Shown here piece after piece: positions 18,370-47,100 of a stretch of DNA of 64,000 nucleotides. The stretch lies in the NCBI RefSeq assembly GCF_004210375.1, contig NC_134827.1, positions 101,541,285-101,605,284 of the forward strand. Direction: 5' to 3'. The notes below the pieces were generated by a model that was not told where the DNA came from, made no database searches, and was given only the letters and a program-made list of their open reading frames with translations. The position numbers and the translations under genes are program-made. Source of the stretch: Tachypleus tridentatus. Taxonomy: Eukaryota > Arthropoda > Merostomata > Xiphosura > Limulidae. The first letter of the stretch is position 1. Each line of letters opens with the position of its first letter.

Positions 18370-18500
18370 TCTCCATTTCTTGATGATGAAAAACCCACTT
18401 GAAATAAAAAACGTATCTCGCAACGGCTTGTATGGGAATTAACACTTACTGATAAGGAGAGAACACCGTTTCGACCTTCCTAGGTCATCTTCAGGTCTCC
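18370..18500 (-). repeat. Fold-back repeat with hammerhead-ribozyme-like core, copy 1
   Basis: The plus strand holds the terminal segment GTATCTCGCAACGGCTTGTA then GGGAATTAACACTTA. The minus strand then reads CTGAAGA, T, GACC-taggaa-GGTC, GAAAC-ggt-GTT. GGAGA upstream and TCTCC downstream can pair as stem I. This is the best-preserved of three copies in the window. Confidence 0.6.
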
Positions 18501-18765
18501 ATTTCTAATACAAGTAATAGACAGTGAAAATATAATTAATTTGAAAATACTTCAATCTCATCAGAAACGAAATTCGTAACATCACGGATTCAAAGTCGCC
18601 ATTTTTTAGCAAAAATACGAGAAACGTTTCGTTATGATAATTCATTGCCAGATTAAATAAATATACATATTTATAAATCAAAGTTATGCTTAGGTGAATA
18701 ATTCTACAACATAGTAATATAATATGAACAGGTGCTCACGTGAATCCTTGTACAAACACTTACAG

Positions 18766-18885
18766 CCACCAGGTGGCTCAGTAAAAAAGCTTGAAAATTT
18801 ATAACATTAAAGTTGAGGTTCGATCCCTGTGATGGCCAAAATGCGTACAACCCATTATGAAGTTTTGCACTGAGATTAACAAACA
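18766..18885 (+). mobile_element. SINE family B1-like
   Basis: CCACCAGGTGGCTCAGTAAA, B box GAGGTTCGATCCCTG, and tail CAACCCATTATGAAGTTTTG. Confidence 0.72.
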
Positions 18886-18898
18886 CACTTAAGAGAAA

Positions 18899-18985
18899 TT
18901 CCTGTGATGTGTCAGGGTCCGATTCTCCGCAGTAGACACAGCATCTAGCCCATTATGGCTTTCCCATAAGACAAACAGACACGAA
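18899..18985 (+). mobile_element. SINE family B fragment
   Basis: CAGGGTCCGATTCTCCGCAG then CACAGCATCTAGCCCATTAT and ATAAGACAAACAGACACG. Confidence 0.68.
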
Positions 18986-19437
18986 GAGAAATTACTCAAA
19001 TTAATAAGTGAAATGTTTCAATGTGAACATATTATCGTAAAAGAACAACTTATTTTTGATGCGTGTGAGTACTCGATAGACTGAGAAGAGCTGTGTCATG
19101 TGATTTTGAAATGTGTGTTTTGTGGCTGACGTTGAACACGGAATACAGTTTCTACCCCAAAGCAGTTAGGGTTAGCATAACAAATTATATGAAGGTGTTT
19201 AAATGTTATCTTAGCTTACTAACCTTGATCCGTCAAATTTCACTTGCTGATAACTGGATGAAAATATGATGTAGGACACTACCGAGACCAGACCACCTTG
19301 TCAGAAAGGTTTACTGAACCAGTCATTGCTTATCGATCAGTAGTTAAATGCAAATAAAGCGGAGCGTGTTATTTATAGTCATATGTTTTAATAAGAGTCA
19401 GTTTCACACATTTCATCACAGAAAATGTATCCCCTGT

Positions 19438-19509
19438 AAGTAGGTTTACGGACATACAACGGGTTCAATTCCCCACGGTAGGCAGAGCACAGATAGTGTA
19501 CGTCTGTGA
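19438..19509 (+). mobile_element. SINE family B fragment
   Basis: GTAGGTTTACGGACATACAA then GGGTTCAATTCCCCACGGTA and GCAGAGCACAGATAGTGTAC. It is cut by the following family A element. Confidence 0.75.
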
Positions 19510-19751
19510 TTGAATTTCGCGCAAAGATATACGAGGGTTATCTTCGCTAGTCATCCCTAATTTAGCAGTGTAACACTAGAGGGAAAGCAGTTAGTCATCA
19601 CCACCCACCTCCAACTCTAGGGCTACTTTTTTACCAACAAATAGTGGGATTGACTATAAAATTATAACTCTCTCGGCTGAAAGGGCGAGCATTTTTGGTG
19701 TAACCCTCAGATTACGAGTCGAGCACCCTAACCATTAGGCCATGCCGGGCC
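19510..19751 (-). mobile_element. SINE family A, nearly full length
   Basis: Inverse element from GAATTTCGCGCAAAGATATA to CATTAGGCCATGCCGGGCCC. A short deletion removes the B-box region between GGTGTAACC and CTCAGATTACG. Confidence 0.92.
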
Positions 19752-20551
19752 CGACAAAGATAGTCTATCCATGTAAAATTTGGGGCATCTAGTATACACA
19801 AGTTTATCACTCTAAATATCCTAATCCTTGGACAACTAGTTGTCGCCCATTAATTACGATTGAAGGAAAATAAAAATAAAGTAAAGCACCCACCACATAC
19901 TACTTAAGAACCATAATGTGGGTTTGTTCATATATTAGTTCAGTAGCAGTGTACCATTAGCAGCACCACTCTCGGGCCTAACCCGATGAACCGACTGTGA
20001 TCTGGGTACTGCATTGTAAAAGAGATTGGGTTTAGTGTATCCTAACCACAAACATCAGTATCTGGTAGAAAACAACCGACGTCTTCGGGAGGAGGGTTCC
20101 AATGAGGAAGTGGGTGGCATACAGAGGGCGAGAGGTGATACGTGCAGCTTTCTATCACCTGTCTGAAAGTGCAACCTGTTTGTACCGTTCTCATTAGTAT
20201 GCAACATGAATTTTATTTTTGTCTATATTTTAAAGTTTACTTGTATATATATATATATATATCTTTTTGTTCACTGTTATATTTTTAACATTTGTTGTAC
20301 GATGCATAAGCCGGCTCGTATTTTATTTAATTTATGTAATAGGTAATTAATAGGTCACTTTGTTTATAACAACAAAGCCGAAAAAAAGATTATTTGTTCA
20401 GTTTCCACAACAAGTATCGAATCCAGTGTCATCGGGTAGCATTTAAACAAGTGACTTTGTTTGTTCGGAATTTATTTCAATATAATTTATTACAATTCTA
20501 CTTTTAATGTTATTTCATTGTTTCCAGTTGTATTTCTTAACTTTTGGTTAC
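19752..20551. other. Unrecognised DNA with a GC-richer block
   Basis: 19970-20180 is richer in G and C than its surroundings and contains a small hairpin (CGGGCCTAACCCG). It matches no family I recognise. The remainder is AT-rich. Confidence 0.6.
20245..20263. repeat. AT dinucleotide microsatellite
   Basis: An uninterrupted TA run of about nine units. A shorter TA run is at about 31818-31831. Confidence 0.9.
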
Positions 20552-20792
20552 AGTACTCATAATTCGAAGGTCGCAAGTTCGAATCCCCGTCACACCAAAC
20601 ATGCTAGCTCTTTCAGTCGTGGGGACGTTATTATGTGACGGTCAATCCAACTATTCGTTAGGAAAAGAGTATCCCAAGAGTTGGCGGTGGGTGATGATGA
20701 CTAGATGTCTTTCCTCTAGTCTTAAATTACTATATTAGGGAAGGCTAGTGCAGATAGCCCTCGTGTCGCTTTGGGTTAGATTCAAAAACAGA
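20552..20792 (+). mobile_element. SINE family A, lacks first part of head
   Basis: Starts at GTACTCATAATTCGAAGGTC, has B box AAGTTCGAATCCCC, and ends AGATTCAAAAACAGAC. Confidence 0.92.
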
Positions 20793-21630
20793 CATAATTT
20801 TATTTTAAAAGTTACTTTCAGTTATGTTTTTATTTGTAGTTTTTTCATTTATGGCTGTTTTGTTTTGGATTATTACATTTCAATTTGAGTTGTAGTCTTT
20901 TATTTTACTTCAACTGTTTACTGAAGTTTTCGGTCTATAGTTTAATTAAAGCCTCATTTGGTCACTGAAGATCATTTTGAAGGACGGGAAATGGAGGACC
21001 CTCGAAATAATGAAGCGATTAGCATAAGCTATGTCTATAATTCGTGTATGTAATTTTCTTGAATGTTCGTACAGTGTCTACTTGTAGCTGGTCACAACTA
21101 TGTTGATGGGATATCTGAAGGTCGTATAGATGTAGTAATTATTTTGCAGACACGTTACATGCTGCGATTTTTGTTCTTAAGTCTCAGTCTAGCTAGCATA
21201 CACGCATTTCTGTATGAAATTCTAGGAAGTTCTCTTATTAAAGCAAAAGGTAAAACAAAACAAAACTGAGCAAACTTGCTTGAGATGGCCATAACTATAT
21301 TGAGGAGTGATTTAAATATGTAACTCAAAGGGTTGTGGGATACCGCAGTAGGACTTGGTCCAACTATAAAAATATCTTGGATTTGCTCTTTTCTTTCAAA
21401 CGCCTTGACCTCAGGAACTTTCTAGTCGTAAATAATGCAGAAACTGAATAGGTGGAAGTTATCACAAAATAGTTTTATGACTAAAGATTTTATTAGATGT
21501 ACAAACTGGTGTTATTTATTATCCTTTACTCTCTATGTTCATTATAAGTAGTTGGATATTATACCTGAATATCCCATGGTTGAATATCAGTCCATCTCTC
21601 GGAAGTTTGCTAAACTCTGAGACAATAAGC
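20793..21630. other. AT-rich DNA, nothing recognised
   Basis: A 68-codon plus-strand frame at 21063 has no recognisable domain. Confidence 0.6.
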
Positions 21631-23144
21631 TTAAACATCTGTTATAATAATAGTTAATACTAGATAGAAAGACTGACTTTAAAATCGCATGAAATAAACA
21701 TCTGTTATAATAATAGTTAATACTAGATAGAAAGACTGACTTTAAAATTGTATGAAATAAACATCTGTTATAATAATAGTTAATACTAGATAGAAAGACT
21801 GACTTTAAAATTGTATGAAATAAACATCTGTTATAATAATAGTTAATACTAGATAGAAAGACTGACTTTAAAATTGTATGAAATAAACATCTGTTATAAT
21901 AATAGTTAATACTAGATAGAAAGACTGACTTTAAAATTGTATGAAATAAACATCTGTTATAATAATAGTTAATACTAGATAGAAAGACTGACTTTAAAAT
22001 TGTATGAAATAAACATCTGTTATAATAATAGTTAATACTAGATAGAAAGACTGACTTTAAAATTGTATGAAATAAACATCTGTTATAATAATAGTTAATA
22101 CTAGATAGAAAGACTGACTTTAAAATTGTATGAAATAAACATCTGTTATAATAATAGTTAATACTAGATAGAAAGACTGACTTTAAAATTGTATGAAATA
22201 AACATCTGTTATAATAATAGTTAATACTAGATAGAAAGACTGACTTTAAAATTGTATGAAATAAACATCTGTTATAATAATAGTTAATACTAGATAGAAA
22301 GACTGACTTTAAAATTGTATGAAATAAACATCTGTTATAATAATAGTTAATACTAGATAGAAAGACTGACTTTAAAATTGTATGAAATAAACATCTGTTA
22401 TAATAATAGTTAATACTAGATAGAAAGACTGACTTTAAAATTGTATGAAATAAACATCTGTTATAATAATAGTTAATACTAGATAGAAAGACTGACTTTA
22501 AAATTGTATGAAATAAACATCTGTTATAATAATAGTTAATACTAGATAGAAAGACTGACTTTAAAATTGTATGAAATAAACATCTGTTATAATAATAGTT
22601 AATACTAGATAGAAAGACTGACTTTAAAATTGTATGAAATAAACATCTGTTATAATAATAGTTAATACTGGATAGAAAGACTGACTTTAAAATTGTATGA
22701 AATAAACATCTGTTATAATAATAGTTAATACTAGATAGAAAGACTGACTTTAAAATTGTATGAAATAAACATCTGTTATAATAATAGTTAATACTAGATA
22801 GAAAGACTGACTTTAAAATTGTATGAAATAAACATCTGTTATAATAATAGTTAATACTAGATAGAAAGACTGACTTTAAAATTGTATGAAATAAACATCT
22901 GTTATAATAATAGTTAATACTAGATAGAAAGACTGACTTTAAAATTGTATGAAATAAACATCTGTTATAATAATAGTTAATACTAGATAGAAAGACTGAC
23001 TTTAAAATTGTATGAAATAAACATCTGTTATAATAATAGTTAATACTAGATAGAAAGACTGACTTTAAAATTGTATGAAATAAACATCTGTTATAATAAT
23101 AGTTAATACTAGATAGAAAGACTGACTTTAAAATTGCATGAAAA
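21631..23144 (+). repeat. 63-bp minisatellite, about 24 nearly identical copies
   Basis: The unit starts AAACATCTGTTATAATAATA and ends TTAAAATTGTATGAAAT, repeating exactly every 63 bp from 21633. Interior units are identical except for one A-to-G change (CTGGATAG at about 22669). The first and last units carry GCATG in place of GTATG. Confidence 0.97.
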
Positions 23145-23251
23145 ATACAAGTTTAAATTTAAAGAACACTGAAATCATTTCTTCAAATGTTATAAAGTTG
23201 TTTAACTGACAATTTAAATACAAACGATCTATGTAAGGCTTCTCATACATG

Positions 23252-23521
23252 AGTTTGTTATGAATTTCACACAAAGCTACTCAAAGGCTATCTGTGCTAG
23301 TCGTCCCTAATTTAGCAGTGTAAGACTAGAGGGAAGGCAGCTATTCATCACCACCCACCGCCAACTCTTGGGCTACTCTTTTACCAACGAATAGTGGGAT
23401 TGACCCTCACATTAATGCCCCCACAGCTGAAAAGGCGAGCATGTTTGGTATGACGAAGATTCGAAACCGCAACCCTCAGATGACGAGTTGAGCGCCTTAA
23501 CCACCAGGCCATGCCGGGCCT
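23252..23521 (-). mobile_element. SINE family A, full length, with target duplication
   Basis: Flanked by CTTCTCATACAT and CTTCTCACACAT (one difference in 12 bp). It lies just after the 63-bp minisatellite. Confidence 0.94.
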
Positions 23522-23655
23522 TCTCACACATAAACTAGCAAAAAAGAAAAAAACATAATAACTGAAACACGTGGACTCTAAAAATAGTTGCAGTTTTACT
23601 GATAACTTAAAAATAAAATATAGATGAAATTGTTTGTGTAACAGCATCGGTTCCA

Positions 23656-23985
23656 AATCTGTATTATCTGTTTATCTTTATCCTGAGTGGTAAATATTTC
23701 ATTGTGAATCTGTATTATCTGTTTATGTTTATCCTGAGTGGTAAATATTTCATTATGAATCTGTATTATCTGTTTATATTTATCCTGAGTGGTAAATATT
23801 TCATTATGAATCTGTATTATCTGTTTATGTTTATCATACGTGGTAAATATTTCATTATCAAAATGCAGTTTCTGTTTACGTTTATGCTGAGTGGTAAATA
23901 TTTCATTATAGATCTGTAGTTTCTGTTTATGTTTATGCTGAGTGGTGAATATTTCATTATAGATCTGTAGTTTCTGTTTTTATTT
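23656..23985 (+). repeat. 51-bp tandem repeat, about 6 copies
   Basis: The unit starts AATCTGTATTATCTGTTTAT and ends GTGGTAAATATTTCATTATG, with starts at 23656 and 23707. The period is a multiple of three, so it forms a false repetitive reading frame. Confidence 0.93.
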
Positions 23986-24044
23986 CATTATTTCGAGATG
24001 AACTAACTTATATTACCCGAGCTTATCACGTGATTTAATGATTT

Positions 24045-24162
24045 GTTATTAAGCACAAAGATCCATACAATAGGCTACCTGCACTGAGTCCACGGCGAGT
24101 TTCGAAACCCGATTTCTTTGTGTTATTAACTCCCAGACTTACCGCTGAGTCACGAGGGAGTA
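24045..24162 (-). mobile_element. SINE family B2
   Basis: TTAAGCACAAAGATCCATAC, GGCTACCTGCACTGAGTCCA and ACTTACCGCTGAGTCACGAG are the inverse of the B element. Confidence 0.75.
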
Positions 24163-25758
24163 TGCACTTACTAAATATATAAAACAGAAGTAATATTACT
24201 TACCAATGTGTTGTTCCCATTATATCACTGTATTTCGTTAATGTCCCCTCCCCTGGTGTTAAATATTACAAACTCTCATTAGGGATTGTAGCAAAAAACA
24301 ACAACAACAACACACTAAATGATTTAGAAGAAATTTAGGAAAAAATCGGTTTTTGTAGTTTTAGTAAAATTACATTGATATACTGACTTACTATAATATA
24401 ATATTACAACATATTATACGTCTTAAGATACATGCTACATTCGGCCACTGGTCTCAGACATTTTTTACATCTTTTAATAGCATTTAGTTAAGATAATCTG
24501 TCAGTAAAGAATAACGCGCCAGTTTTAAACAGATTATCTTATCTAAACATCAGCCAGACAGAAAGCCTGAATATTAAATTACAGTTGCTCGCTGTTTCTT
24601 TAATGTTTCAATATTCCAACAGCTCAGACAGCAGGCATAGATGTCATTCTATGGTTCTTTGGTATTTCTCTAACGTCTCAAAATTCCAAAGAGAAATCTT
24701 CAATGTATATTACTGTTGCTTGCCTTCACCTGGATGTCCTGCTGAGTCGTGTTATTGTTATTCCCCACAATCCTAAACTTACTGGTGAAGGTAACACCAG
24801 CGTCAAACTCTTAAAAAAACGGGTATGTGTGTGTGTGATCCAAGCTCCTTTCCAAAAATAATTCTTAATTTAATATATTCATAAAGCTACGTAATTCTCA
24901 GGGTGTGTAGTTTCGATAAGACATGTAGAGAGAGAAATACATAAAAAAGCGAAGTATTCATAATAATCAGATATGAATATTTAAATAAGTGAACGAGTGG
25001 CGGATGAAGCAACTTACACGTGGAAACGTCACTCCATTTAATTCTAACCTGCCACGCGGAAATCCAGCTCGTGACAAACACGTTGCTCACCCGTCTCCTT
25101 TTCTACATAGTTTGACCTAGACAACCTTTCAGTGTGTCGTTCCTCCTTAATTAACCCATTGCCCTACTTCAAAGAGTAGGGCACCTGGTGCAGCTGGCTT
25201 AAGACAGCTTCAAGTCGGAATTGTGGGTAGGTTTACAAAATATCGGGGATTTCCTCATGTGATAGACTCGGTTTGTTTTCCACTGATGTCTGCAGCCTGG
25301 ATCTAAAAGAATACTGGATTCCTTAACATTTCTCAAAACAGCCAACATACTGAATGCGGTGCCTTTCGTCCGCTATGACGTAATAAAGGACGTAATTTAC
25401 GTTCTAATTATCGTCACCAGTTGTAATATAAAAAAAGAGAAAAAATAAGATTGCATTCTAATGATTATCGTTCATTTAATAAATCAAAAAGGAAACTGAT
25501 CGTTGTCTGGTAGTTAAGAGTGCTCGGGCTGTAAACTGAGGGTTAATGGTATGCACCTCTTTGGCACAAAAATATATTTCGTACTTTGGGACAGTGGGTT
25601 TGTTTGTTATACATTGACGGTAGAAATGCTCTATATGTGGCATTCGGTCAGATGACAGCATTCCAAGAGTCGGAAGAGGTTCTTTTACACTTTCTCTTAG
25701 CTTCTTAGTTCAAAATTTGTTATTCTACTGTCTCGTACCCTACAGGTCACACTGTTTA
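24163..25758. other. Unrecognised DNA
   Basis: There is a GT microsatellite at about 24826-24836 and an ACA run at 24298-24310. Open frames of 60-67 codons carry no motif. Confidence 0.6.
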
Positions 25759-25821
25759 TTGATGGCTAGCGCAGATAGCCCTCGTGTAGCTTTGCATAAA
25801 ATTCAAAACAAACCAAACTAA
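25759..25821 (+). mobile_element. SINE family A, 3' tail fragment
   Basis: TGATGGCTAGCGCAGATAGC then CCTCGTGTAGCTTTGCATAA and CAAAACAAACCAAAC. Confidence 0.88.
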
Positions 25822-26451
25822 ACCTTGTAGAATCTATCTGGTCTTTCATTTGCAGTCGTGAAGGGAACATTGGTGTTTGTGCTTCCATCTGTTGACGTTT
25901 TTAATCACTTTTAAAATCATAAAGCTCTGTCTGGAAAATGGAAGAAGAACCTTTTCGTTTCTGTGCTACTTTTATAAATTAGTACTCAAGACCTTTTCCA
26001 TAACTGTTACGCCAAACCAGACAGTTGCTCACATTTCACCTTTGATCTCAACTAAGTCTCTGCCAAAATCATCGATAAAATAACTTATATTACTCTTAGA
26101 ATATGGTGCTGCTATCTAGTAGCTACATTTGTAATTAAAATGTAAAGCGAATTCTCTTCTTAGATAACGGTATCTTAAACAGAGGTAGGGCATTATGTCC
26201 AAGTTAAAGACCCAGAAGACGACGGCATAGAAGCTAGTTTACCCCCATAAAGTAACCGGTGAATATATGAGCACTTAAGAGAACCTTTTAACTTATCCTT
26301 AAACTCTGTTCATATCGCAGCCTCTTAAAACAAACAAATGTTCTCAAGTTCCATAAAGATGAGAAGCCAGCCAATGGACCAGATACCTATTTGTCTTATC
26401 AGATTGGCCAGCCGTTCTGGAAAAATTATTTAACGTGTATTAAGTAACGGT

Positions 26452-26720
26452 TTTGTTTGTTTTGAATTTCGCACAAAGCTACTCGAGGGCTATCTGCGCT
26501 AGCCGTCCCTAATTTAGCAGTGTAAGACTAGAGGGAAGGCAGCTACTCATCGCCACCCACCGCCAACTCTTAGACTACTCTTTTACCAACGAATAGTGGA
26601 ATTGACCGTAGCATTATAACGCTCCCACGGCTGGGAAGGCGAGCATGTTTGGTGCGACCGGGATTCGAACCCACGGATTACGAGTCGAACGCCTTGACAC
26701 ATCTTGGCCATACTGGACCC
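26452..26720 (-). mobile_element. SINE family A, full length
   Basis: Runs from TTTGTTTGTTTTGAATTTCG to CTTGGCCATACTGGACCC. A small deletion lies between ATTCGAACCCA and CGGATTACGAG. Confidence 0.94.
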
Positions 26721-26776
26721 TTAACATCTGGAATGTAAAAATAAAACAAACAACATAATAACCATATAAAAAACCG

Positions 26777-28173
26777 TTTCAGCTAGAAACCTTAGTGGGT
26801 TTTACTTGTCATCTGGCAGGATTAAGTTAAATCACAACTAAGTTTCAGCTAGAAACCTTAGTGGGTTTTACTTGTCATCTGGCAGGATTGAGTTAAATCA
26901 CAACTAAGTTTCAGCTAGAAACCTTAGTGGGTTTTACTTGTCATCTGGCAGGATTGAGTTAAATCACAACTTAGTTTCAGCTAGAAACCTTAGTGGGTTT
27001 TACTTGTCATCTGGCAGGATTGAGTTAAATCACAACTAAGTTTCAGCTAGAAACCTTAGTGGGTTTTACTTGTCATCTGGCAGGATTGAGTTAAATCACA
27101 ACTTAGTTTCAGCTAGAAACCTTAGTGGGTTTTACTTGTCATCTGGCAGGATTAAGTTAAATCACAACTAAGTTTCAGCTAGAAACCTTAGTGGGTTTTA
27201 CTTGTCATCTGGCAGGATTGAGTTAAATCACAACTAAGTTTCAGCTAGAAACCTTAGTGGGTTTTACTTGTCATCTGGCAGGATTGAGTTAAATCACAAC
27301 TAAGTTTCAACTAGAAACCTCAGTGGGTTTTACTTGTCATCTGGCAGGATTGAGTTAAATCACAACTAAGTTTCAGCTAGAAACCTTAGTGGGTTTTACT
27401 TGTCATCTGGCAGGATTAAGTTAAATCACAACTAAGTTTCAGCTAGAAACCTTAGTGGGTTTTACTTGTCATCTGGCAGGATTGAGTTAAATCACAACTA
27501 AGTTTCAGCTAGAAACCTTAGTGGGTTTTACTTGTCATCTGGCAGGATTGAGTTAAATCACAACTTAGTTTCAGCTAGAAACCTTAGTGGGTTTTACTTG
27601 TCATCTGGCAGGATTGAGTTAAATCACAACTAAGTTTCAGCTAGAAACCTTAGTGGGTTTTACTTGTCATCTGGCAGGATTGAGTTAAATCACAACTTAG
27701 TTTCAGCTAGAAACCTTAGTGGGTTTTACTTGTCATCTGGCAGGATTAAGTTAAATCACAACTAAGTTTCAGCTAGAAACCTTAGTGGGTTTTACTTGTC
27801 ATCTGGCAGGATTGAGTTAAATCACAACTAAGTTTCAGCTAGAAACCTTAGTGGGTTTTACTTGTCATCTGGCAGGATTGAGTTAAATCACAACTAAGTT
27901 TCAGCTAGAAACCTTAGTGGGTTTTACTTGTCATCTGGCAGGATTGAGTTAAATCACAACTTAGTTTCAACTAGAAACCTTAGTGGGTTTTACTTGTCAC
28001 CTGCCAGGATTGAGTTAAATCACAACTAAGTTTCAACTAGAAACCTTAGTGGGTTTTACTTGTCATCTGGCAGGATTAAGTTAAATCACAACTAAGTTTC
28101 AGCTAGAAACCTTAGTGGGTTTTACTTGTCATCTGGCAGGATTAAGTTAAATCACAACTAAGTTTCAGCTAGA
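26777..28173 (+). repeat. 66-bp minisatellite, about 21 copies (locus 2), same unit and orientation as 2406-2805
   Basis: Units repeat every 66 bp from 26821. Two diagnostic positions (GGATTAAG/GGATTGAG and ACTAAG/ACTTAG) run in a repeating order of about nine units, which indicates a higher-order duplication. The array is cut at its right end by a family A SINE. Confidence 0.96.
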
Positions 28174-33240: not shown

Positions 33241-35808
33241 TAGGGGTGGCCAAACTTGGTTAACGTAAGCGCCACATACGATAAACTTCAGATGTTTGAG
33301 AGCCACAAAACATGAACAAATATTACACACACGTTTTTATTGTTACATGTACATTGTGTTACATAAATTTTATATAAATATTAATAAATACATGTACGTA
33401 ATAATATTTATCCATGTATGTAGTTTTTAAACTGTTAATTTGTATTAGTTTCAATAATCACACATATATATACCAAATGTTTTCAAAATCCTGGCTGATT
33501 ATTGTTTTAACTATATTGAGCGTATTTAATACGGTAATGAACTATGGAAACATCTAAGAAAAATATACAAATTTGTATTTCATTAACATTAAATGAGGCT
33601 GCTAAAAATAAAAATACAAGAGGTAGAAACAGATATTTTTTAATGATATTTATTTGTCTTAGTAAATATCTGGTCAAAACATGGAGGAAAAGATGTAAAA
33701 CAATAAAATTAGAGTTATTTTAATCAGATACCACCTTACAAAATTTTAGTCTTGTCATAATATTTTTCTGACCCAAACAAACACTGATACGATTATCAGG
33801 CTATTTACTGCTAGTAGAGGTCTTGTGTGTTTCCATCTTGGTCGTGAGTCTTTGAAATTCCAGCTGACATGTTGTTAAGGCTGAAGGAATTAGCTCCGTC
33901 AGGTGTTGATTTGTAAGGACTGCACGATGCTTTGACGTCACAAACTTCATTACAGAGTACAGTGATTCACAGCAGTATGTTGTGCTGAAAATTGAGATGA
34001 GTCACACACTGGTTTTCTTCAGGATATTTTATTTCTAGAACTTACTTCCAGAGAACTCAGTTGTAGAATGGGATTTATGGATCATCTTTAGATCCAGGTC
34101 CTCCTGTAGTTCTATTAGTTTCATTTCTACAGCAGATGATTCTGTAACCAGAGGTTCGGGAATTGGACAACCATCACTGATCACATCAACCATGAATGGA
34201 TTTACAAGAAAGGCGAAGCAAGACTTCAGCTTCTGAGAGTCCTCAAATCTGTCTAGGAAATTATCAAGCAGTCCTTGTAATTTATCTTTGTATTCTTCCA
34301 GTTTGTGATCTTTTATTTTAATATAATGGAAAGTATTTACTTGCCTTTTGAGATTTGGAAAGTAACTGAAGTTTCTTGACAATATGTCTCTTTGAAAAAA
34401 GTCTTATTTTATTCTGAAAGCTGCCAGGATAAGATCAGAAACAATCTTATCCTTCCCTTGGAGTGCCAAGTTGAGAGTTTGTAGATGATTCATTATATCA
34501 GTAAGGAACGTTAGATCTTGCATCCATTCATCATTTCCCAGTTGAGGAAAGAATCTTTTCTTTTCTTCAATAAAAGTAATAATAGGCTCCACCAAATTCA
34601 CAAACCTATTTAAGACATTGCCGGTTGACAGCCACCTCACAATGCAGTAGAAAGAGACATCACTGGGTTTATCTTTAAGCTCCAGTTCTTCAATAAAAAT
34701 TTTAACTGTCGGTGGGTCTTCCCATTTAAGTTTATGAAATTCACAATTTCAAGAATAAATTTCATAACATCTTCATACTTGAAGTATCTGGCTGCTAGGT
34801 GTTCACGATGAATAATGCAATGAACAGGGAGAAACTCTGGAAAGCTGGGATCATTTTTCATAAGTGCAATTAATCCTGCATTTTTCCCTATCATTGCAGG
34901 TACTCTATATGTTGCAACACTGACGAGTTTATCCAGTGGAATATCAGCATTTGTTAAAGCTCTGTGTCAAGCACATTTTTAATGTTAACACAACAAGTTG
35001 TTTCATTTAGTACCACTAAGTCCAACATCTCTTCTTTCACAGTTACATCAAAGGAAGCATAACGAACAAATGTCACCAGTTGTGGGTTGTCTTGTATATC
35101 TGTAGATTCGTCAAGGGCCAAGCTGAATGCAAGGGAATTCTTTAAATAATTTGGCCTGCAACATCAGCACTGATCTGGTAGATACGACTCTCTGTAGTGT
35201 AGCGTGAAGCTGATGTTTGTGCTACTAGTCACTGAAGTTTTGTGTTATTTGGATCTAACTACAACAACTTCAGTTATATTTTTAACATATTCACCATCAA
35301 AATATGGGCATATAGCATTCAGTCGTTGCATCAACTTCCTTACTGAACGTTGTCAACAGTGTCTGCTGGCTATTTAGTGATAATTTTAACACAGTTAACT
35401 TGTTTTTCCATAATTCTGATTCTCCAACACAATTCCTCTGTAATCCTTACTTGTACGATTAGTGATCCAACACAAATCCTCTGTAATCCCTGCTTGTATA
35501 ATTACTAATCCAACACAATTACTCTGTAATCCTTGCAGATCCTAAATTTCCTTAATCCCTGACTGAAATCTAACATTAAGATTTAAATTATTAGATATAT
35601 TTACCCATCATGAACATAAAACTTATGTTTGAATCCAGTGAGTTATCAGTTCATACCCAGTAACTAATTATAAAGCTTGAAATATTTTTATTTAAGTTTT
35701 ATATTAATTGTGATGCAGAAAGGAGCTCAGCCAACATATTTCCGCGAGCAGCACGTTATATGTCAAAGAGCCTCAAGTGGCTCGCGAGCCGCGGATTGAT
35801 CACCCCTG
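33241..35808 (-). mobile_element. Decayed hAT-superfamily DNA transposon
   Basis: The ends carry the hAT-type motif: TAGGGGTGGCCAAAC on the left and, read inward, CAGGGGTGATCAATCC on the right. The similarity extends outward into CTTTATGGT on both sides. No clean 8-bp target duplication was identified. The interior minus strand encodes broken hAT transposase segments (next entry). About 700 bp at the left end, next to the 3' end of the transposase, is non-coding and AT-rich. Confidence 0.8.
34035..35200 (-). pseudogene. hAT transposase pseudogene, GTF2IRD2/ZBED-like type
   Basis: Three open pieces lie in order on the minus strand: 34894-34637, 34640-34404 and 34382-34035. Motifs shared with this hAT group include HCIIHREHLAARY, RWLSTGNVLNRFV, FIEEKKRFFPQL, FLTDIMNHLQTLNLALQGKD and LVNPF. 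Upstream, around 35000-35130, a further segment reads LDESTDIQDNPQLVTFVRYA, the region of the first catalytic acidic residue. Frameshifts and stops between pieces show that it is inactive. The ordering agrees with one degraded ORF, not with separate genes. Confidence 0.83.
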
Positions 35809-38689: not shown

Positions 38690-38747
38690 ATGTGTGAAAA
38701 ACTGATTGAACTGTCTCTTCTTATTGTGGTTTTCCAGATATTGTCAG
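38690..38747 (+). CDS. Exon 1 of chitin-binding gene: start codon and signal peptide
   Basis: The ATG at 38690 opens a reading frame of 19 codons plus one base. It encodes a short polar N-terminus, a run of about 12 hydrophobic residues, and a small-residue end typical of a signal peptide. The donor is TCAG|GTAATA. Joining to exon 2 restores an alanine at residue 20 followed by HGQNETT, a plausible signal-peptidase cut (ILSA|HGQ). I chose this start because it is the only ATG giving a signal peptide in phase with exon 2. The promoter and transcription start are not evident. Confidence 0.78.
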
Positions 38748-41700
38748 GTAATACCTTTCTTTACATAGTCTGTCTTATGCTTAACAAACAAGCTATTTTA
38801 TCAAACATTTTCAAATATACATTCAAATAAATTTATTTAAAATAATAGTTTGTTTGTTTGTTTTTTAGACATAACTCGCTATCTCCTTCGGCAGCTTCGA
38901 GAAATTTGTCAGTTATTTTATCATCCAGTATTTAAATTTAGTTTCAATAAACATATTTTTCACTCGATTTGTTATTCTCTCATGTTACTTAGTTGGCACA
39001 TCTTATTATTTAAATTAATTATAATTAAACTGTTTGTATAATCATTTTATTTTTAATTTGTTAGAGTAACTATATTATGTATTTTACCTAACGTGTAATA
39101 TCTATCATAAAATGTCTCGTATGTACAAGCCTCTTGTTAAGTTGGGGAAAGGAGGTTTATTTTTAGTTTTTGGTTTTTAGAAAATACTTACATTATCGGG
39201 TTTTTTATTATTAAAAGTTCTTTCTGTTCTGTGATGAAAATAGATTTACAATAACTATGTTGCATTTTGCACAATATTAAACTATTCTCTAGTACATGTA
39301 TTGATATGACTTAGGTTTGTTCCGTTGGCGAGACCTTATAAATTATTCGGCGAAAATAATTTAAAGTTTATGCCATTAAATTATAAGGAATTAATTTATT
39401 TCCTTTTCTTAACGTTTATACAAGCTTAAGCACTTATACACTGCCGTAAGTTGTTGTAGGCCGACGTTACAAATGACATGAGACAAATAAACTTAAGTGT
39501 GGAATGTAACTCGATAAATGTATATGCTAACTAATTCATTCCACAAGCTTAATTACTTTCTTCTCAATAATCTCTTCAACTAACTATGAACTATTTCTAA
39601 CTAACCTCTAAAAGTTCCATGGAACGTTGAATTTATAGTCTATTCTTGTTCTAAGTATTACTAGGACTTCCCTGATCTTATTTTAATGAGTTATCTGTCT
39701 AAAATGTACACACATTGAATAAACTACAACTTTATAAATACAGCCAATATCAGTGTATTGAAATTCAAAGTTAATTTAAATATTCACTTTCCGTGAGATA
39801 TTTGAGTGTAATTTGAAATTTAATCTGGTATGTAAAGTAATCACTTCAGTGCGTACGTAAAGATATTGTTAAATTTGAAACCGCTGTAGAGAATATGTTA
39901 AAAACGTAAATTAAGAGACGGAGGAAGGAAACAATATCTTCCTTCTTTTTTTCTTAATTTTTATTCATGTTTTGTTTATTCGTTTAGCACATGGACAAAA
40001 TGAAACCACAGCATCTTCTAACCCTGTTAAGCCGGTATTTTCACAAAAATGTATCGCTCCCAGGGGTCAGTTTCCTCACGAAGAATATTGTCATCGTTAC
40101 TACGATTGTTGGGATGGGGAAATTTCTGTTCAAGAATGTCCAGGAGAACTTCTGTTCAACAGCGATCCCCAGAAATACTACTGTGATTATCCTGAGAGTG
40201 TTGATTGTGCTGGCCGTACTGTCATCAAAGGTTTGTTTGTCTGTTTATGAATTTCGCGCAAAGCTACACGAGGTCTATCTGCGCTAGCCGTCCCTAATTT
40301 AGAAGTGTAAGACTAGAGGGAAGGCAGCTAGTCATCACCACTCACCGCCAACTCTTGGGCTACTTTTTTACCAACAAATAATCGGATTGACCGTCAATTT
40401 ATAACGCCCCCATGGCTGAAAGGGCTAACATGTTTGGTGTGACGGAGATTTGAACTCACGGCCCTCAGATTACGAGTCATGCTGGGCCTAATCGTCAAAA
40501 ATGAGTTACAAGTTCCACATTCAGGCGCATAGGCTCAGTGTATTGAGATTTTATTAGTTAGCTACGTGCTTAAAAGAATTAAAGTGGTTGAAATTGAGTA
40601 AGCTTACTGTGATGGTAGAAATTACTAGATCTTTTGTGTTGAAAGATTCACACAATTTTTGTTTCTTTTCAATTTTGGACTGTCTCATTAGCCGTGCCGA
40701 ATTTAGCAGTCATAGGCTATAGAGGACGTAGCTGGTTAACATTACCCACCTTCAATTCTTGGGCTACTCTTTTACCAACGAATAGTAGGATTGACTATCT
40801 CATTATGACGCCCCCACCTATGGTTGAAAGAGTGAGCATGTTCAGTGACAGGGATTCGATCCCGCAAAGTTCGAGTTGATTGCTTAACTACCTGGCCATA
40901 TCAGATCTCACAGAACGCTGTAATGCTCATTTGTGAAAACAGATAGTTTATTAATATAATTACTAAGCTAAATACTTGTTTTTATAAAATTCCCGTCTGT
41001 ACTATCCATCCTTAATTTAAAAGCGACAGACTAGTGCAGTATTTTTCAACGAGGTAAATGGTTCATCCAGGAGTTAATGAGATCAGAATCCAGAGGAAAC
41101 TAGTATTATTAATTATACAACAAATTTAAGGGCAAAAATATTCATTAGTTATTATTATATATTCTAGTTGTATTTTGATAACTGAACTTATTTTTTGTTT
41201 ATGTTGTATTCGTATTAATGGTAGTTAGATATATAATTAAGTTTTATTATAAAGAACATTCCATTTTAATATAGTACTTTTTGCTTTTTTCAAAGAAGGT
41301 AGCTAGTCAACATTGTCTTGTCTTGAACTATTAGGTTGAGGAGTAATTCGTGAGCGTTTTTAAATAATTTCATTCAAGCATTACATGCAAGACTATACAA
41401 TACTTCAATGCATGAACACATTACACCCAAAACATTTATTATTATACTTTATTTCATGTTAAACCTAGGTATATAGTATGCATCGTTTTAAACGAAATTG
41501 CCAGAAATTAAATGCGAAAAGCAGATGCTCGATTTTGTCCACTTGTCATTCCATTTAATGAGCTGAAAATGAAAGCAAAAATTAAAGACATATGAAAATC
41601 AAACACACCATCTATTAGAGCAAAAAACTATCTACCAAATGACATGAAATATTTTGCGAAAGCGTTTCATTTATGAATATATTTTGTTAACTTGAAAAAA

Positions 41701-44700
41701 CGCTCACGAATTATTCCTCAACCCAATAATTTAATTAAGTATCAGAATTATGACGTTAACAGCATGAACCCTCTGCTGAAAGGCCGAGTATATTTGCTGA
41801 TAGAAGTCGAATCCGTGAAATAGCCTTAGAACTATTCCGTGAGATAGCTCTGACATCTTACTGGGTTATTTTAGCCCTATACTAGGGTTTGATTCCAGGC
41901 AGTGAACTTGTACAGATAGTCCACCTAATAACGACAAGATACTCTCCAAAAGAAGGTTAAAAAGAACACAATGTAATTATCCCATGAAACAACATACAGG
42001 TTTCTTGAGTGGTTAAACTGCAAAAAGCAACACCTTAGGTTGGATTTAGCTCGTGACTTTATCCGAATTTAGACTTTTCCAAAATTAAGTGTAAGACATT
42101 TGGTATTTACATACCACATTTTTTATTGCACACATACTGTTTGTGTATAGAAGTGTTCATTAATCGTCTCTCTCTTTGTTGAGCTGAAGATGACCCAGGA
42201 AGGTCGAAACTATGTTATCTACTTTATTAATAAAAGTGTTAATACCCATACCAGCTGTTCTGAGATACATCATTAATCGTTTGTTATCTCTACAGAGGTA
42301 AGTTCATCCATAATAAACTGAATTTCTGTACACTTATATTTTAGACCCCTCGGTGAAGAATGAAATATGTCCACGAAGCTGGGGGATCTTTCCTGACACA
42401 ACAAACTGTGCAGGATTCTATCTTTGTGTGAAACACATAGCCAGGAGGGTTTTGTGTCCAATAAACACCGTTTATCATATCGAGACAAAGGTGTGCACTC
42501 ACGTAGCCACAGTGGACTGCACGGACAGAGGAGTACCCAGCTGGGGCTTCGAGGGTCAGTGGCTATATTGTAAAGTTAGGTTACGTGTACCAAGAATGAG
42601 TGTTTAGGAAACATGTTCACAGCTATTAAGTGATATATCAGTTTAAAACTAGTTTAAGAATTAACAAGTGCGTTTACTTTTTTTTTTTAACCATAAATTA
42701 ATGATCCAATTGGATTGAATATAACTAGACATAAATGCACTTGTAATATGTTGTTAATGCTTTTCACTGTACAGAAATAAATTTAATGACTAGTAAATCA
42801 GCTTGCAAATTTCCATAGATCTACTATGATTATTTCCAAAGTACATTTTTATATTACATATTTTAGACTGTTTGAACATAGGTTGGATTTGTGTGAAATA
42901 TATGTGAAAGTCACAATAAAAACAAGTCGAACAATTAAAGTCACCAATTATGTCTGCACAAGTACAGTGTGGGGAAGCCGAACAATTAAAGTCACCAATT
43001 ATGTCTGCACAAGTACAGTGTGGGGATTCTTTCAAACAATATCTGATCACCGTGTACTCACTACATTTTCTTCTACATTAAATACAGAATGTGCATATTG
43101 GTTTGTGACATTAATAAATATACATTTTTAGTACAAGTTATTGATTTTTGATTCAATGACTGATGTTTGATTATTGTATAAATGACGGTCGTTATCAGTT
43201 CACACCTTGATGATTGTGTAGATAGGTCTGGTGTGGGTCAAGGCAACACTGGTTTTTATATAAGTGTTTATGGACCTACATGATCCATATTTTTATCCAC
43301 TGGTTTACTCTATATCATAATTTAAAAGCCACACTGACTTAGAGGTTTTCATTACTGCAAAAAACTTATTGCGTATATTCTGTCTGGTATTTTGATATTA
43401 GCGAGAAAAGTAGCAAGTACATATGAAATGCAAACTCTGGAAAAGTTATCTGGAGAACGTGAACAACAAAGGAAAAACAAGTAACAAGTAAAACATTTAT
43501 TCATAATTAAGAGCACACTATAAATTTCTGATTTGCTGGATAGTTTCTGAGTGTATTGTAACTTAACTGACTCCTGAAGCAAAAAATAAAAGGCTTTCAA
43601 AAATGCTTACACTGGATAAGCACCAAAGTAAAAGATAATGAAACATCACACTGTTAAATCAGATCAGATTGGACTACATTACTTATATCAAAATTCATTC
43701 CCTTTAAACATATCCATTGGAGCTAAACCTTCAGCTTATACGAACTTGTACAAGTCTCTTTACCATCTCATGGAATGAGTATGATCTTACTTCAGGAGGG
43801 CATAACACGGAAACAGACCCAAATAAATATAAGCATGTGAAACAAACAGTATACAGTACTGCCTTATTATAATTCCATTGGTTATATATCTTTCTCGGAT
43901 ATAAGGCTGTTCTTCTGTATTAATATTATTTGCTTGTTTGTTGTTGTTTTTTTTATTTGATGCAAAGCTACTTGAGGGCTATGTGCACTAGCTGTTGCTA
44001 ACGTAGCAGTCTAAGACCAGAGGGAAGGCAGCTAGTCATCACCACCCACTACTAACTCTTATGTTACTCTTTTACTAATGAATAGTAAGATTGACGGTCA
44101 CATTATAATGCCCCCATGGCTGAACAGGTGAGCATGTTTGGTGCGACGGGGATTCGAACCCACAACCCTCGGGTTACGAGTCGAGTGCCTTAACCACACG
44201 GTCATGCTGGTCCCAATGTTATTTGCTACTTAGCTCGTTGACACTTGGCTTCAGAAGCTAAAGTCATTACAGTATGTCAGGAAATAAAGGAAAAAAAACA
44301 AGTGGAAGTCCCAAATGCAAAGCCAAGAAATGTGAATATAAAATCCAGATGTAAATCTGATATTTGGACGCTGGTAATTAAGGTAAGAAAGAAATTTGGA
44401 AATGTGGCCTGATTGTTGAAATAGCAAGAAAGTGTCATTGATATAGCATTTGTAAGGGAAAGGTTTAAAGTCATGTGGGCAGTTATGGTAGCATAGAAAA
44501 CTGTTGGCTCTCCTTGGATCCACCAGGGATTCCATATACTAGTCATAAATAACATCATTAAAGAGGAAGTGGTGTTACTAATTGGTTATAATACACCCCC
44601 ACCTATATCGATCGTGGGTGCACATGACATCCGATCATTGTGTTATAATACTTTGGTATGTAATCCTTACCTAAGATAAACTAAACAAAAACCAGTAAAA

Positions 44701-45012
44701 CTATTTGATTTATACCTCACTGGAGATTACAGGTTTTGAAAGGTTAAAATATGTGTCATACACAAATGGTTGAGATGACCATAATAATCATCTAATAATT
44801 GTACTATTAGTTTTTAATCTCGCGAAATATTTTTTTCCTCTTACAGAAGATGTTTTTAAATGCCCAGATGCACGTGGTATATATACACATACAAAGAAGT
44901 GTGACCAGTACTGGGAATGTTCAGAGTTCAAACCACAATTGAAAACCTGTCCCCAAGGTCAGCTATTTGACCAGTATCGATTGTTATGTGACCTAGCTGA
45001 AAATGTTCTTTG
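38690..45012 (+). CDS. Secreted chitin-binding protein with CBM14 (peritrophin-A) domains, obstructor-like; 4 exons, 3' incomplete
   Basis: I join the exons 38690-38747, 39988-40230, 42345-42554 and 44847-45012. All visible internal junctions are phase 1, so each domain exon is a symmetric module, and the join gives 225 residues plus a split codon. Residues 1-20 are a signal peptide with a hydrophobic core (SLLIVVFQIL). Three CBM14 domains follow, with cysteines at 41/54/60/70/85/93, 109/122/128/138/151/159 and 176/189/195/205/218/(226). Their spacing is C-x12-C-x5-C-x9-C-x12 or 14-C-x7-C, the family signature, with the aromatic residues expected for chitin contact (HRYYD, AGFYL, DQYWE). Known family members bind chitin in cuticle or gut lining outside the cell. 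Three similar domains after a signal peptide suggest the obstructor/Gasp group, but peritrophin or cuticular analogues are equally possible. The chain is incomplete: the last exon ends in phase 2 and no convincing next exon is seen before the gap at 52305. Confidence 0.85.
39988..40230 (+). CDS. Exon 2 of chitin-binding gene: linker and first CBM14 domain
   Basis: The acceptor is a T-rich tract ending in CGTTTAG|CACAT. The exon encodes a short S/T/N-rich linker with a possible N-glycosylation site (NETT) and a complete six-cysteine CBM14 domain. The length of 243 nt keeps phase 1 on both sides. The donor, AAAG|GTTTGT, is non-consensus and coincides exactly with the first bases of the tail of an antisense SINE at 40231. 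Confidence 0.85.
40231..40488 (-). mobile_element. SINE family A at the exon 2 donor site of the chitin-binding gene
   Basis: The inverse tail GTTTGTTTGTCTGTTTATGA begins at the first intronic base, so the GT of the donor lies inside the SINE tail. The head is shortened (TACGAGTCATGCTGGGCCT). The flanks CATCAAAG and CGTCAAAA are similar and may be an eroded target duplication. Confidence 0.92.
40690..40908 (-). mobile_element. SINE family A, tail missing, diverged
   Basis: Starts TAGCCGTGCCGAATTTAGCA, continues through the core (ATTCTTGGGCTACTCTTTTA) to ACCTGGCCATATCAGATC. Confidence 0.88.
41331..41726. mobile_element. Mariner-type MITE, 396 bp, in intron 2 of the chitin-binding gene
   Basis: Long terminal inverted repeats: the left end reads TTAGGTTGAGGAGTAATTCG and continues TGAGCGTTTTT, and the right end is its near-perfect inverse (AAAAACGCTCACGAATTATT then CCTCAACCCAA). 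TA lies directly outside both ends (41329-41330 and 41727-41728). The interior is AT-rich with no transposase motif, so it is non-autonomous. Confidence 0.85.
41857..41940 (+). mobile_element. SINE family B1, diverged fragment
   Basis: TACTAGGGTTTGATTCCAGG then GTACAGATAGTCCACCTAAT. This is weak but in the right order. Confidence 0.55.
42175..42276 (+). repeat. Fold-back repeat with hammerhead-like core, copy 2
   Basis: The plus strand reads CTGAAGA, T, GACC-caggaa-GGTC, GAAAC-tat-GTT, then TTTATTAATAAAAGTGTTAA and the terminal segment CATACCAGCTGTTCTGAGATAC. It lies in intron 2, about 70 bp before exon 3 of the chitin-binding gene. The stem I flanks no longer pair well. Confidence 0.6.
42345..42554 (+). 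CDS. Exon 3 of chitin-binding gene: second CBM14 domain
   Basis: The acceptor is ATATTTTAG|ACCCC and the donor is GAGG|GTCAGT. The 210-nt exon is phase 1 at both ends and encodes exactly one six-cysteine domain (cysteines 109-159) plus a short linker. Reading through the donor gives a stop codon at 42605, which would make a two-domain protein if the intron were retained. The spliced form is preferred because the next exon matches in phase and domain content. Confidence 0.83.
42927..43027 (+). repeat. 51-bp tandem duplication in intron 3
   Basis: CGAACAATTAAAGTCACCAA then TTATGTCTGCACAAGTACAG occurs at 42928 and 42979. The copies are essentially identical. Confidence 0.9.
43929..44213 (-). 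mobile_element. SINE family A, full length, with target duplication, in intron 3
   Basis: Flanked by AATATTATTTGC and AATGTTATTTGC (one difference in 12). Runs from the T-rich inverse tail to CACGGTCATGCTGGTCCC. Confidence 0.94.
44847..45012 (+). CDS. Exon 4 of chitin-binding gene: third CBM14 domain, incomplete
   Basis: The acceptor is TTTTTTTCCTCTTACAG and the donor is the strong CTTTG|GTAAGT. The exon enters in phase 1 and leaves in phase 2. Five of the six domain cysteines are encoded (176, 189, 195, 205, 218). The exon ends in TG exactly where the sixth cysteine is due, seven residues after Cys218. The next exon should therefore start with C or T to make TGC or TGT. Confidence 0.82.
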
Positions 45013-45770
45013 GTAAGTTGGAATGCTTTGAAAACCATAGTATCAGTGGCCAGTTGGTCAGGTTCTTAGTACGTAACCATTTCATAAGAATTTTTAAAAA
45101 TCCCACTGATTGAATTTTGTGTAATTTTGCTGTTAAAGCATTTCTAGATACAATAATGTTATGGTAGCACATGGAGGAAATTTTGAATCATCAGTTAATG
45201 AGATATTAACTTCCGTTTTATAATTTTTTCATTTGTGTAGCAGTTTGCTACCAAAGCCCTTTAATTATGAAATATTCACAGAGGCATGCCCACTTATGGT
45301 AATGAGCATACAGAATAATACATTTTCACACACACATATTAGTTTATTATTATTAAATTTTCAGTTTATTATCTCATTATTAAAAGTAGTTATCTTGCTA
45401 GAGAATCTTAACTCTGATCACATGTGGCCAATTTCATCAGATAATAAAAAGGTCATGATCCCATTTACAGGTGAACTAGACATTATCCCTGCCTCTTTTA
45501 CTCCAATCTGAAATTACAATGTTTGAAATTTGATTAAATTAACATTATGTGGGTACTCTTAGTGGATATTATTTGCTGGATATTTTTTATATATTACCAC
45601 TTAGCAACCCAATAGAACAGTTAATCCTAGGAATTGAGCTCAAAATATCGTAATTTTCTCCCTGAAGAATGAACAAAAATCTCCTGGAATATTTTTGTTA
45701 GCATACACAAAGTTTCTTCTACCTAAGCCCCACCCTCCCAAATGTTTCCTTGAAATGCTACATCTTAATA
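45013..45770 (+). other. Intron 4 start of chitin-binding gene, no further exon seen
   Basis: After the GTAAGT donor at 45013 there is no cysteine-patterned frame. The 92-codon frame at 45233 has no CBM14 spacing and no suitable acceptor joining in phase 2. Confidence 0.6.
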
Positions 45771-45929
45771 GAGTACTGTGCAAAAGTGTTAGGACAAAAT
45801 CAAACATGAGATTTCAGGCTACTTTCACATAACAGTGGAAGGTAAATCACAGGTGAATCACATCAAAATTTTATTAATGTTCATATTTAGTAGAACAGAA
45901 ACTCGGTGGAAGTGCTTGGGTTCAGCAAA

Positions 45930-46970
45930 CAGTTAATATTTTGTGTGTCTCTGTTTTGCTTTAATAACTACAGACAGTCTTTCAGGTACTGTTGCAACAT
46001 ATTTAATCAAAGTGTTCTTTGGTATTTTACTTCAAATGTCTCAAGTACACTCTCATAAATTTTCTTTTGAAGTAACTTTTGTGGGTCAAGTTTTTTATCT
46101 ATTAAATCTCAGATCTGATCAATTGCATTGAGGTCATGGTTCTGTGAGGGTCATTGTATCATTTGAATAGCTCCAACAGCTTTTGTTCTCAGCTAAGTAA
46201 TTTCTACATAGGTTGAAAGAGTGTTTGGGGTCACTGTCTTCTTGGTAGTAGAATCCTTTTACCATTGGGTATACCATAATGGATCAGTATCTGATGATAC
46301 TTTCCCTAGTCCATTATTCCATCTATTTTCCAAATATCTCCTGTTATCTCAGCAGCAAAACTCCCACAAACCATCACACTGTCTCCCCCATGTTTCTTTA
46401 TAGGTGCTGTGTCTTAAGGTAAGTATCTTTCACCTTTCTTCCACTTAACATACGACCTACACTTTGAAACTAATATTTCAAACTTGGATTCAACTATCCA
46501 TGGCACCCATTTTCACTCGTCAACAGTCCAGTTTTTGTACATTTTAGCAGATTTCAGTCTCTTGACGATACTTAGTGACCAAAGTAAATGTTTTTAACTG
46601 CTACACAACCAAATGTTCCATTCTCGTTGAGTCTTTTTGATACTGTAGATCAGGACACTTTTCTGTCATTTGGTACATGGTTGAGATCAGTGTCAGTCTT
46701 CCTTCTGTCCTGAAGGCTGGATAAACAAAGACACTTATCATCAGTATCATTAAGTTTAGGTGTTCTGTCTCTTCCTTCCATATTTTTCAAATTTACATGT
46801 CGTGGTCTTACGATCGAGAATGTACTTGACAGTGTTTCAAGTCTGCAGACATTTGGCAAAAGGTTCAACCAGCACCACGTAAAGCTTTTATACAAACTCT
46901 CCATTCTATTGTATCTCAGAATGGCTGGTAGGAGTAATAACACTTTTATCAATAAAGCAGAAAACAACAT
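45930..46970 (-). pseudogene. Tc1-like transposase pseudogene
   Basis: 46970-46650 encodes the N-terminal HTH region (SSTFSIVRPRH, GRDRTPKLNDTDDKCLCL). Further downstream on the same strand, around 46210-46260, a segment reads FYYQEDSDPKHS, the counterpart of the conserved QQDNDPKHTS block. Near 46110-46170 a segment reads PSQNHDLNAIDQI, the counterpart of SPDLNPIE, followed by a stop. Both catalytic blocks are altered and the frame is interrupted repeatedly, so no active enzyme is expected. Confidence 0.82.
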
Positions 46971-47100
46971 TTCAACCTTCCTAGGTCACCTTCAGGTTAA
47001 CAAAGGTATTAATAAAAGATTTAATACCCATACCAGCCATTCTGAGATACATTTTTATTCCATATGGGTTTCTCATCATCAAGAATTGCTTCTCCATTCT
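46905..47100 (-). repeat. Fold-back repeat with hammerhead-like core, copy 3, nested in Tc1 element
   Basis: Inverted ends: TATCTCAGAATGGCTGGTAG near 46912 and CATACCAGCCATTCTGAGAT near 47030-47050. Between them the minus strand reads CTGAAGG, TGACC-taggaa-GGTT, GAAAT-gtt-GTT. Similarity to copy 1 continues to about 47100 (TTTCTCATCATCAAGAA, the inverse of the segment at 18370). This copy shows both ends of the element and so defines its fold-back shape. Confidence 0.6.

Follow-up and report, generated by a model that had tools for sequence, protein, structure and literature searches.

What kind of element is a short dispersed repeat whose copies share a hammerhead-like core, and is that core a ribozyme? 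The question is raised by three copies in a 64-kb stretch of the genome of the horseshoe crab Tachypleus tridentatus (contig NC_134827.1, forward-strand positions 101,541,285 to 101,605,284; the whole analyzed stretch is referred to here as the window). An earlier note on this DNA had described them as a fold-back repeat with a hammerhead layout and had suggested a link to Penelope-like elements (PLEs). We consider the copies to be short 5'-truncated insertions of the pseudo-long terminal repeat (pLTR) of a PLE, with a core that would be a decayed minimal type I hammerhead (estimated probability, about 0.78). Sequence comparisons for the repeat family covered the copies within the window.

The three copies belong to one repeat family. 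A 26-base pattern (CTGAAGRTGACCNNGGAAGGTYGAAA), searched with up to three mismatches allowed, matched three times in the 64 kb, at 18494-18469 (-), 42184-42209 (+), and 46995-46970 (-). All three matches were exact, and 100 shuffled sequences gave none. The core-containing stretches of the copies were 77 to 83% identical to each other (blastn E values, 4e-12 to 8e-24). The three copies with ordered blocks that had been reported earlier are confirmed by the pattern search, and the 6-nt loop, the GACC/GGTC stem (GGTT in copy 3), and the GAAA-(C/T)-NNN-GTT string are present as described. A 3' half ending in ...GAGATAC is common to all copies. Copy 1, whose first base is C3 of the hammerhead core, extends approximately 30 nt beyond this point and ends in ...TCATCATCA; copy 2 ends in GAGATACA.

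Perfect direct repeats of 10 to 12 bp, which the earlier note had overlooked, flank all three copies (Table 1). Because these target-site duplications (TSDs) bound each of them, the copies are insertions. An automated repeat search listed the TSDs of copies 2 and 3, and the TSD of copy 1 was found by sequence inspection and blastn. Among 19,415 random pairs of 40-nt sequences, drawn from the window outside the listed tandem arrays, 0.062%, 0.134%, and 0.33% shared a word of at least 12, 11, and 10 nt, respectively, the flank windows of the copies having been placed by hand around the limits of homology. The locations given previously for the copies were right, and their limits are corrected by the TSDs. 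One structural claim does not survive this correction: the GGAGA that had been paired with TCTCC as stem I of copy 1 lies inside the TSD (AGAAATGGAGAC) and is repeated after the 3' end, and it is therefore target DNA rather than element.

Table 1. Positions in the window of the repeat copies, their TSDs, cores, and tails, and of further 3' ends.
Feature	Position	Strand	Remark
Copy 1, 5'-truncated pLTR fragment with tail	18381..18494	-	114 nt; bounded by 12-bp TSD
Copy 1, left TSD AGAAATGGAGAC	18495..18506	-	Includes the GGAGA used earlier as stem I
Copy 1, right TSD AGAAATGGAGAC	18369..18380	-	12 bp
Copy 1, core (CTGAAGA, extra T, GACC/GGTC stem II, GAAAC, GGT, GTT)	18462..18494	-	R1 match, 18452-18501
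Copy 2, pLTR fragment without tail	42168..42269	+	102 nt; bounded by 11-bp TSD
Copy 2, left TSD TCATTAATCGT	42157..42167	+	11 bp
Copy 2, right TSD TCATTAATCGT	42270..42280	+	11 bp
Copy 2, hammerhead-like core	42184..42216	+	R1 match, 42177-42233
Copy 3, head-to-head pair of pLTR fragments	46908..47090	-	183 nt; bounded by 10-bp TSD; inverted repeat
Copy 3, left TSD AGAATGGAGA	47091..47100	-	10 bp
Copy 3, right TSD AGAATGGAGA	46898..46907	-	10 bp
Copy 3, core with A9 changed to G (CTGAAGG) and stem II closed by a wobble pair (GACC/GGTT)	46963..46995	-	No R1 match
Copy 3, tail of inverted half (TTCCATATGGGTTTCTCATCATC)	47058..47080	+	Homologous to the copy 1 tail, 18382-18404 (-)
Fourth, diverged 3' end with tail (CTCATCATC)	56595..56648	+	blastn E values, 2.5e-6 and 5.4e-4; 0/500 shuffles reach the score in either comparison
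Putative fifth, more diverged 3' end with tail (CTCGACATCA)	about 35..109	+	Weak; blastn E values, 0.15 and 0.24; 0/500 shuffles in either comparison; near window start

The copies differ in how they end. Copy 1 and the inverted half of copy 3 have the tail of approximately 30 nt; copy 2 and the direct half of copy 3 lack it. Copy 3 is a head-to-head structure, in which an inverted 3' half with a tail is followed by a direct fragment that has the core and no tail. Its inverted arms (46910-46954 and 47007-47051) are 45 nt long and 87% complementary. The inverted ends that had been attributed to the repeat in general are thus a property of this one copy; copies 1 and 2 carry a single end and no left arm. 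The distance from A9 of the core to the 3' end is 108 nt in copy 1, tail included (approximately 111 nt allowing for a net 3-nt deletion), and 80 and 82 nt in copies 2 and 3. By sequence similarity, the window contains at least two additional 3' ends that are more diverged, the second one being weak. No TSD was found around the first of them (i.e., the fourth 3' end in Table 1), where the longest shared word was 4 nt. When viral contigs were scanned with the 3' part of the pLTR, one contig was returned, and its flanks, judged by eye, showed no resemblance.

Copies 1 and 3 lie in nearly identical target sites (AGAAATGGAGAC versus AGAATGGAGA). As its tail continues, copy 3 reads AAGAATTG at the point that corresponds to AAGAAATG in the copy 1 target, and AAGAAATGGAGA was found once more at 17542-17553, approximately 0.8 kb from copy 1. 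It is possible that targets were chosen through microhomology.

Known PLEs offer close parallels to these structures. As described in the relevant passages on the anole Poseidon element PAc of Anolis carolinensis (PMC11167929), PAc has, like the copies here, a hammerhead at the start of an open reading frame (ORF) in the pLTR, an optional tail, and a core-to-end distance of approximately 110 nt. According to the same passages, its commonest reverse transcription start lies 111 to 118 bp into the ORF, which begins at hammerhead stem II, and the tail is the stretch between two internal reverse transcription start sites. The PAc protein acts on both DNA strands, cutting and extending each; such activity would account for head-to-head copies like the one found here. 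Activity depends on the initial 172 nt of the ORF, and hammerhead mutants still insert in vitro; loss of the ribozyme therefore need not stop the spread of an element. Unlike PAc as described there, the window has only pLTR fragments, and no ORF was found. A second parallel is Pen2a_Av of Adineta vaga. This element is described (PMC3846280) as having a TSD of 9 bp, an inverted pLTR on its 5' side, and an optional tail of 31 bp on one inverted pLTR. As in copy 3, the inverted pLTR is shorter than the direct one, and the tail is on one arm only. Unlike copy 3, which is a bare pair of 183 nt, the Pen2a_Av insert encloses an ORF of 842 aa.

PLEs are already known to contain hammerhead motifs, and the copies here would join this class. 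A review states that all available PLE sequences carry such motifs, usually minimal ones that lack helix III (PMC6155905), and another source indicates that PLE hammerheads may cleave through dimers (PMC7761336). The membership in a PLE family that the earlier note had proposed is thus supported by features that it did not use, i.e., TSDs of 10 to 12 bp, an optional tail of approximately 30 nt, a head-to-head copy, and a distance from core to end resembling that in a PLE already studied. Trait by trait, a short TSD and 5' truncation were found in all three copies, the tail is optional, and the inverted head-to-head pLTR pair occurs in one of the three. The minimal hammerhead in the pLTR is represented by the core and stem II in two of the three copies, with stem I unformed beside the core.

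If the copies are PLE insertions, the element endonuclease would cut both target strands with a stagger of 10 to 12 nt, and reverse transcription would have two alternative internal start sites on the element RNA, approximately 80 or 110 nt downstream of A9. The two start sites would give ends without or with the approximately 30-nt tail, and cDNAs that stop early would give the 5' truncation. In the case of copy 3, both target strands may have been primed, and the two cDNAs would have met head to head. We infer that head-to-head copies arising in this way would have the two reverse transcription start sites as their outer ends. The core on the 5' side would be a minimal type I hammerhead, presumably active in the past, with a tiny stem III and one extra U before stem II, and the corresponding motifs of intact relatives reportedly function in dimeric form or together with the protein of the element. 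The ribozyme claim is thereby recast as a testable statement about a retroelement, which concerns possible PLE insertion ends, the origin of head-to-head copies, and the role of a worn minimal hammerhead.

The layout CUGAAGA, an extra U, GACC/GGUC, GAAAC, three variable bases, and GUU is shared by copies 1 and 2. The conserved core of the hammerhead (C3 U4 G5 A6 N7 G8 A9, G12 A13 A14, A15.1-U16.1, and H17) is complete in these two copies, and A9 is replaced by G in copy 3. Stem II consists of four pairs that follow one extra U instead of following A9 directly. A descriptor of the core that allowed zero or one inserted base matched only copies 1 and 2 in the window. The codon at A9 is ATG in copy 1, with a stop two codons on, and GTG in copy 3, with the same stop; copy 2 is open to its end. 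An ORF that overlaps copy 3 (46650-46985 [-]) had no Pfam match. The hammerheads of Lunse 2017, as citing papers describe them, are like these copies in the core, in stem II, and in having only one or two pairs in stem III; the copies differ in an improperly formed stem I, and they have one extra U before stem II.

The extra U can be compared with natural motifs. According to a passage on known hammerhead alignments (PMC10085705), at most 1 or 2 nt are inserted between CUGAnGA and the adjacent stems. We scanned IMG/VR for the CTGANGA-U-stem II arrangement, as a sample rather than a census, so that frequencies of different inserted bases are not comparable. The matches listed included 128 distinct viral-contig motifs with an inserted T (prokaryote loci excluded), some of which are closely related and which thus do not represent 128 independent cases. 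The free stem II position forms a Watson-Crick pair in 119 of them. In 111 of the 128, both stem I and stem III were paired, versus 11 of 670 with shuffled flanks; this test accepted type I or type III order and required at least 4 stem I pairs beside the core and at least 3 or 4 stem III pairs, with G-U allowed. True insertions of A, C, and G among the matches listed numbered 15, 4, and 6, of which 9, 2, and 5 passed the same test. Because stems I and III pair in 111 of the 128 listed motifs that carry this U, we regard the extra U as no clear argument against a hammerhead. RAGATH-1 (Rfam RF03152) and other IMG/VR hammerheads share with the copies the arrangement CTGANGA-U-GNCC...GGNC-GAAAC with the inserted U. 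Unlike the copies, they have full stems I and III and lie in IMG/VR contigs, and we claim no common descent. Some IMG/VR contigs hold two to four core motifs among the matches listed.

A covariance model (R1) was built from 24 type I viral-contig motifs with the U insertion, with no sequence from the window, and the window was scored with filters off. R1 ranked copy 1 first (21.3 bits; E value, 3.5e-4) and copy 2 second (16.7 bits; E value, 0.0097), these E values being rough and the model being dominated by core bases. The core of copy 3 was absent among the 17 R1 matches up to an E value of 10. Rfam reported no hammerhead in the whole window, either at gathering scores or at E values up to 10, and none for the individual copies at E values up to 10. 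As a control, 13 loci were scanned with Rfam at gathering scores; none was reported as a hammerhead, and one (L132) was reported as a twister. Eight of the 13 passed the layout test (L004, L009, L132, L133, L134, L136, L137, and L139), with a canonical stem II in L132 and L139. The other five failed it: in L001, L002, and L008, the stem I hairpin is good and the stem III run has only 2 to 3 pairs, and L138 and L097, the latter being the sole control locus from matches in prokaryote-record contigs, lack the layout. L011, which is outside the 13 and has the same motif as L004, matched the RAGATH-1 hammerhead in an E-value scan (21.4 bits against a cutoff of 56.3; E value, 0.12), with the U as an insertion. 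Given that eight full-layout viral-contig control loci also go unreported at gathering scores, the silence of Rfam on the copies says little, and a negative Rfam scan is weak evidence where hammerheads of this class are concerned. We advance only tentatively the wider proposal that hammerheads with a U inserted between A9 and stem II might form a widespread, stem-conserving natural subclass, occurring in viral contigs and in one animal PLE family, and that the PLE lineage here kept this subclass, with intact relatives still cleaving as dimers.

Several results weigh against the proposed origin of the copies or of their core. The stem I pair beside the core (1.1-2.1) fails in all three copies, being C.C in copy 1 (a mismatch that the earlier note had recorded correctly), G.A in copy 2, and C.U in copy 3. 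Among the first six positions of stem I, 5, 4, and 3 are paired in copies 1 to 3, and the pairs of copy 1 use flanking DNA. Copy 3 lacks A9, and the model misses its core. The hammerhead layout claimed for all three copies is therefore retained for the core and stem II of copies 1 and 2; it fails for stem I beside the core in every copy and for A9 in copy 3. R1 mispairs stem I in its matches to both copy 1 and copy 2, and its third match (12395-12416; 14.3 bits; E value, 0.054) is without stem II and looks false. The core descriptor gave 14 matches in 200 order-1 Markov windows (approximately 0.07 per window), and the core sequence alone, with the copies counted once as one family, is only suggestive. 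A published hammerhead screen, in the part that gives its rules (PMC3088659), requires pairs 1.1-2.1 and 10.1-11.1 and drops mutant hammerheads of repeats; by these rules, it would reject all three copies. The tail in the inverted half of copy 3 reaches the TSD 9 nt later than that of copy 1 does, and the second start site would therefore be inexact. No reverse transcriptase or GIY-YIG domain was found in the 20 ORFs scanned with Pfam out of the 41 in the window with at least 90 aa.

The alternative that survives best accepts PLE fragments and takes the core to be another conserved stem-loop (e.g., a hairpin that binds protein close to the start of the ORF) that resembles a hammerhead fortuitously. 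The unpaired stem I beside the core in every copy and the chance rate of the descriptor per window are consistent with this, as is the need of PAc for the first 172 nt of its ORF while its hammerhead mutants still insert (PMC11167929). However, copies 1 and 2 have a complete conserved core at the very place reported for PLE hammerheads, and the chance of the descriptor in a sense stretch of approximately 120 nt is approximately 7e-5 (scaled), although the element was picked by this motif. We consider a fortuitous resemblance rather unlikely and a core derived from a hammerhead likely.

Movement by a long interspersed nuclear element (LINE) is less probable still. The copies would then be a short interspersed nuclear element (SINE) or another nonautonomous retroposon without a PLE origin, to which 5' truncation and variable TSDs of 10 to 12 bp fit too, and SINE-like remains lie nearby. 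However, the three copies lack a poly-A or simple-repeat 3' end, they have two alternative 3' ends approximately 30 nt apart, and one of them is a head-to-head copy with a tail on one side only; we rejected the LINE-driven SINE on these three grounds and regard it as improbable.

The PLE reading with a decayed core also has to be set against the possibility that the copies are active hammerhead ribozymes today, which we judge very unlikely. In favor of activity, copies 1 and 2 retain the core and stem II, and when copy 1 is folded in silico together with its flank, both stem II and a GGAGA/UCUCC helix are predicted. The predicted self-dimers of copies 1 to 3 are 4.7, 5.7, and 11.6 kcal/mol below two monomers, a weak indication because dimer formation itself was not controlled for. 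Against activity, the 1.1-2.1 mismatch is present in every copy, the cleavage position is occupied by U, and A9 is missing from copy 3. Furthermore, copy 1 begins at C3, with a 5' arm that is flanking DNA, and copies 2 and 3 have no stem II when folded at minimum energy. The cores are probably decayed, inactive relics. Because stem I fails, copy 3 lacks A9, and the arm of copy 1 is target DNA, we filed the copies as pLTR fragments with a relic core and not as functional hammerheads.

Miniature inverted-repeat transposable elements (MITEs) have matched ends and a single TSD length; a short fold-back DNA transposon of this kind, with terminal inverted repeats and a core likeness due to chance, would account for the inverted arms of copy 3, but we rejected it as scarcely credible because inverted ends occur in only one of three copies (the other two have no left arm) and the TSDs measure 12, 11, and 10 bp, and the ends also differ in having or lacking the tail, one arm of copy 3 carrying 30-odd extra nt.

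Among the titles listed of publications on Naiad/Limulus/hammerhead or Penelope/horseshoe crab, and of publications containing sequence strings of the repeat (one of them on Pokey transposons), none concerned the repeat; this covers titles only, and we do not claim an unpublished family.

The window is eukaryotic in character, as judged from its scarcity of ORFs, its tandem repeats (41 rows), and its transposon remains; outside a run of 500 N bases (52305-52804; an assembly gap or mask), a single ORF from a start codon reaches at least 150 aa (358 aa). Exon-like ORFs with CBM_14 chitin-binding domains (Pfam) lie at 39915-40250 and 42317-42607 (+), and copy 2, just upstream of the latter, is probably intronic. 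Transposon remains identified by Pfam comprise a Tc5 DNA-binding domain and a DDE_1 endonuclease domain, at 14726-15112 (-) and 59636-59983 (-). Three adjacent ORFs at 34035-34966 (-), which we take to resemble a hAT-type transposase, had no Pfam match. An Rfam tRNA match (32.8 bits) lies at 56501-56572 (-), and ARAGORN found no tRNA in the window. This match and stretches at about 56280-56480, 56740-57010, and 18220-18290 are presumably tRNA-derived SINE-like fragments. SINE-like sequence of this sort in the window may be of a chelicerate type. Two tandem arrays that lie 24 kb apart (2404-2805 and 26776-28173) apparently consist of the same 66-bp unit, and a 63-bp array at 21632-23143 is very uniform (99% matches).

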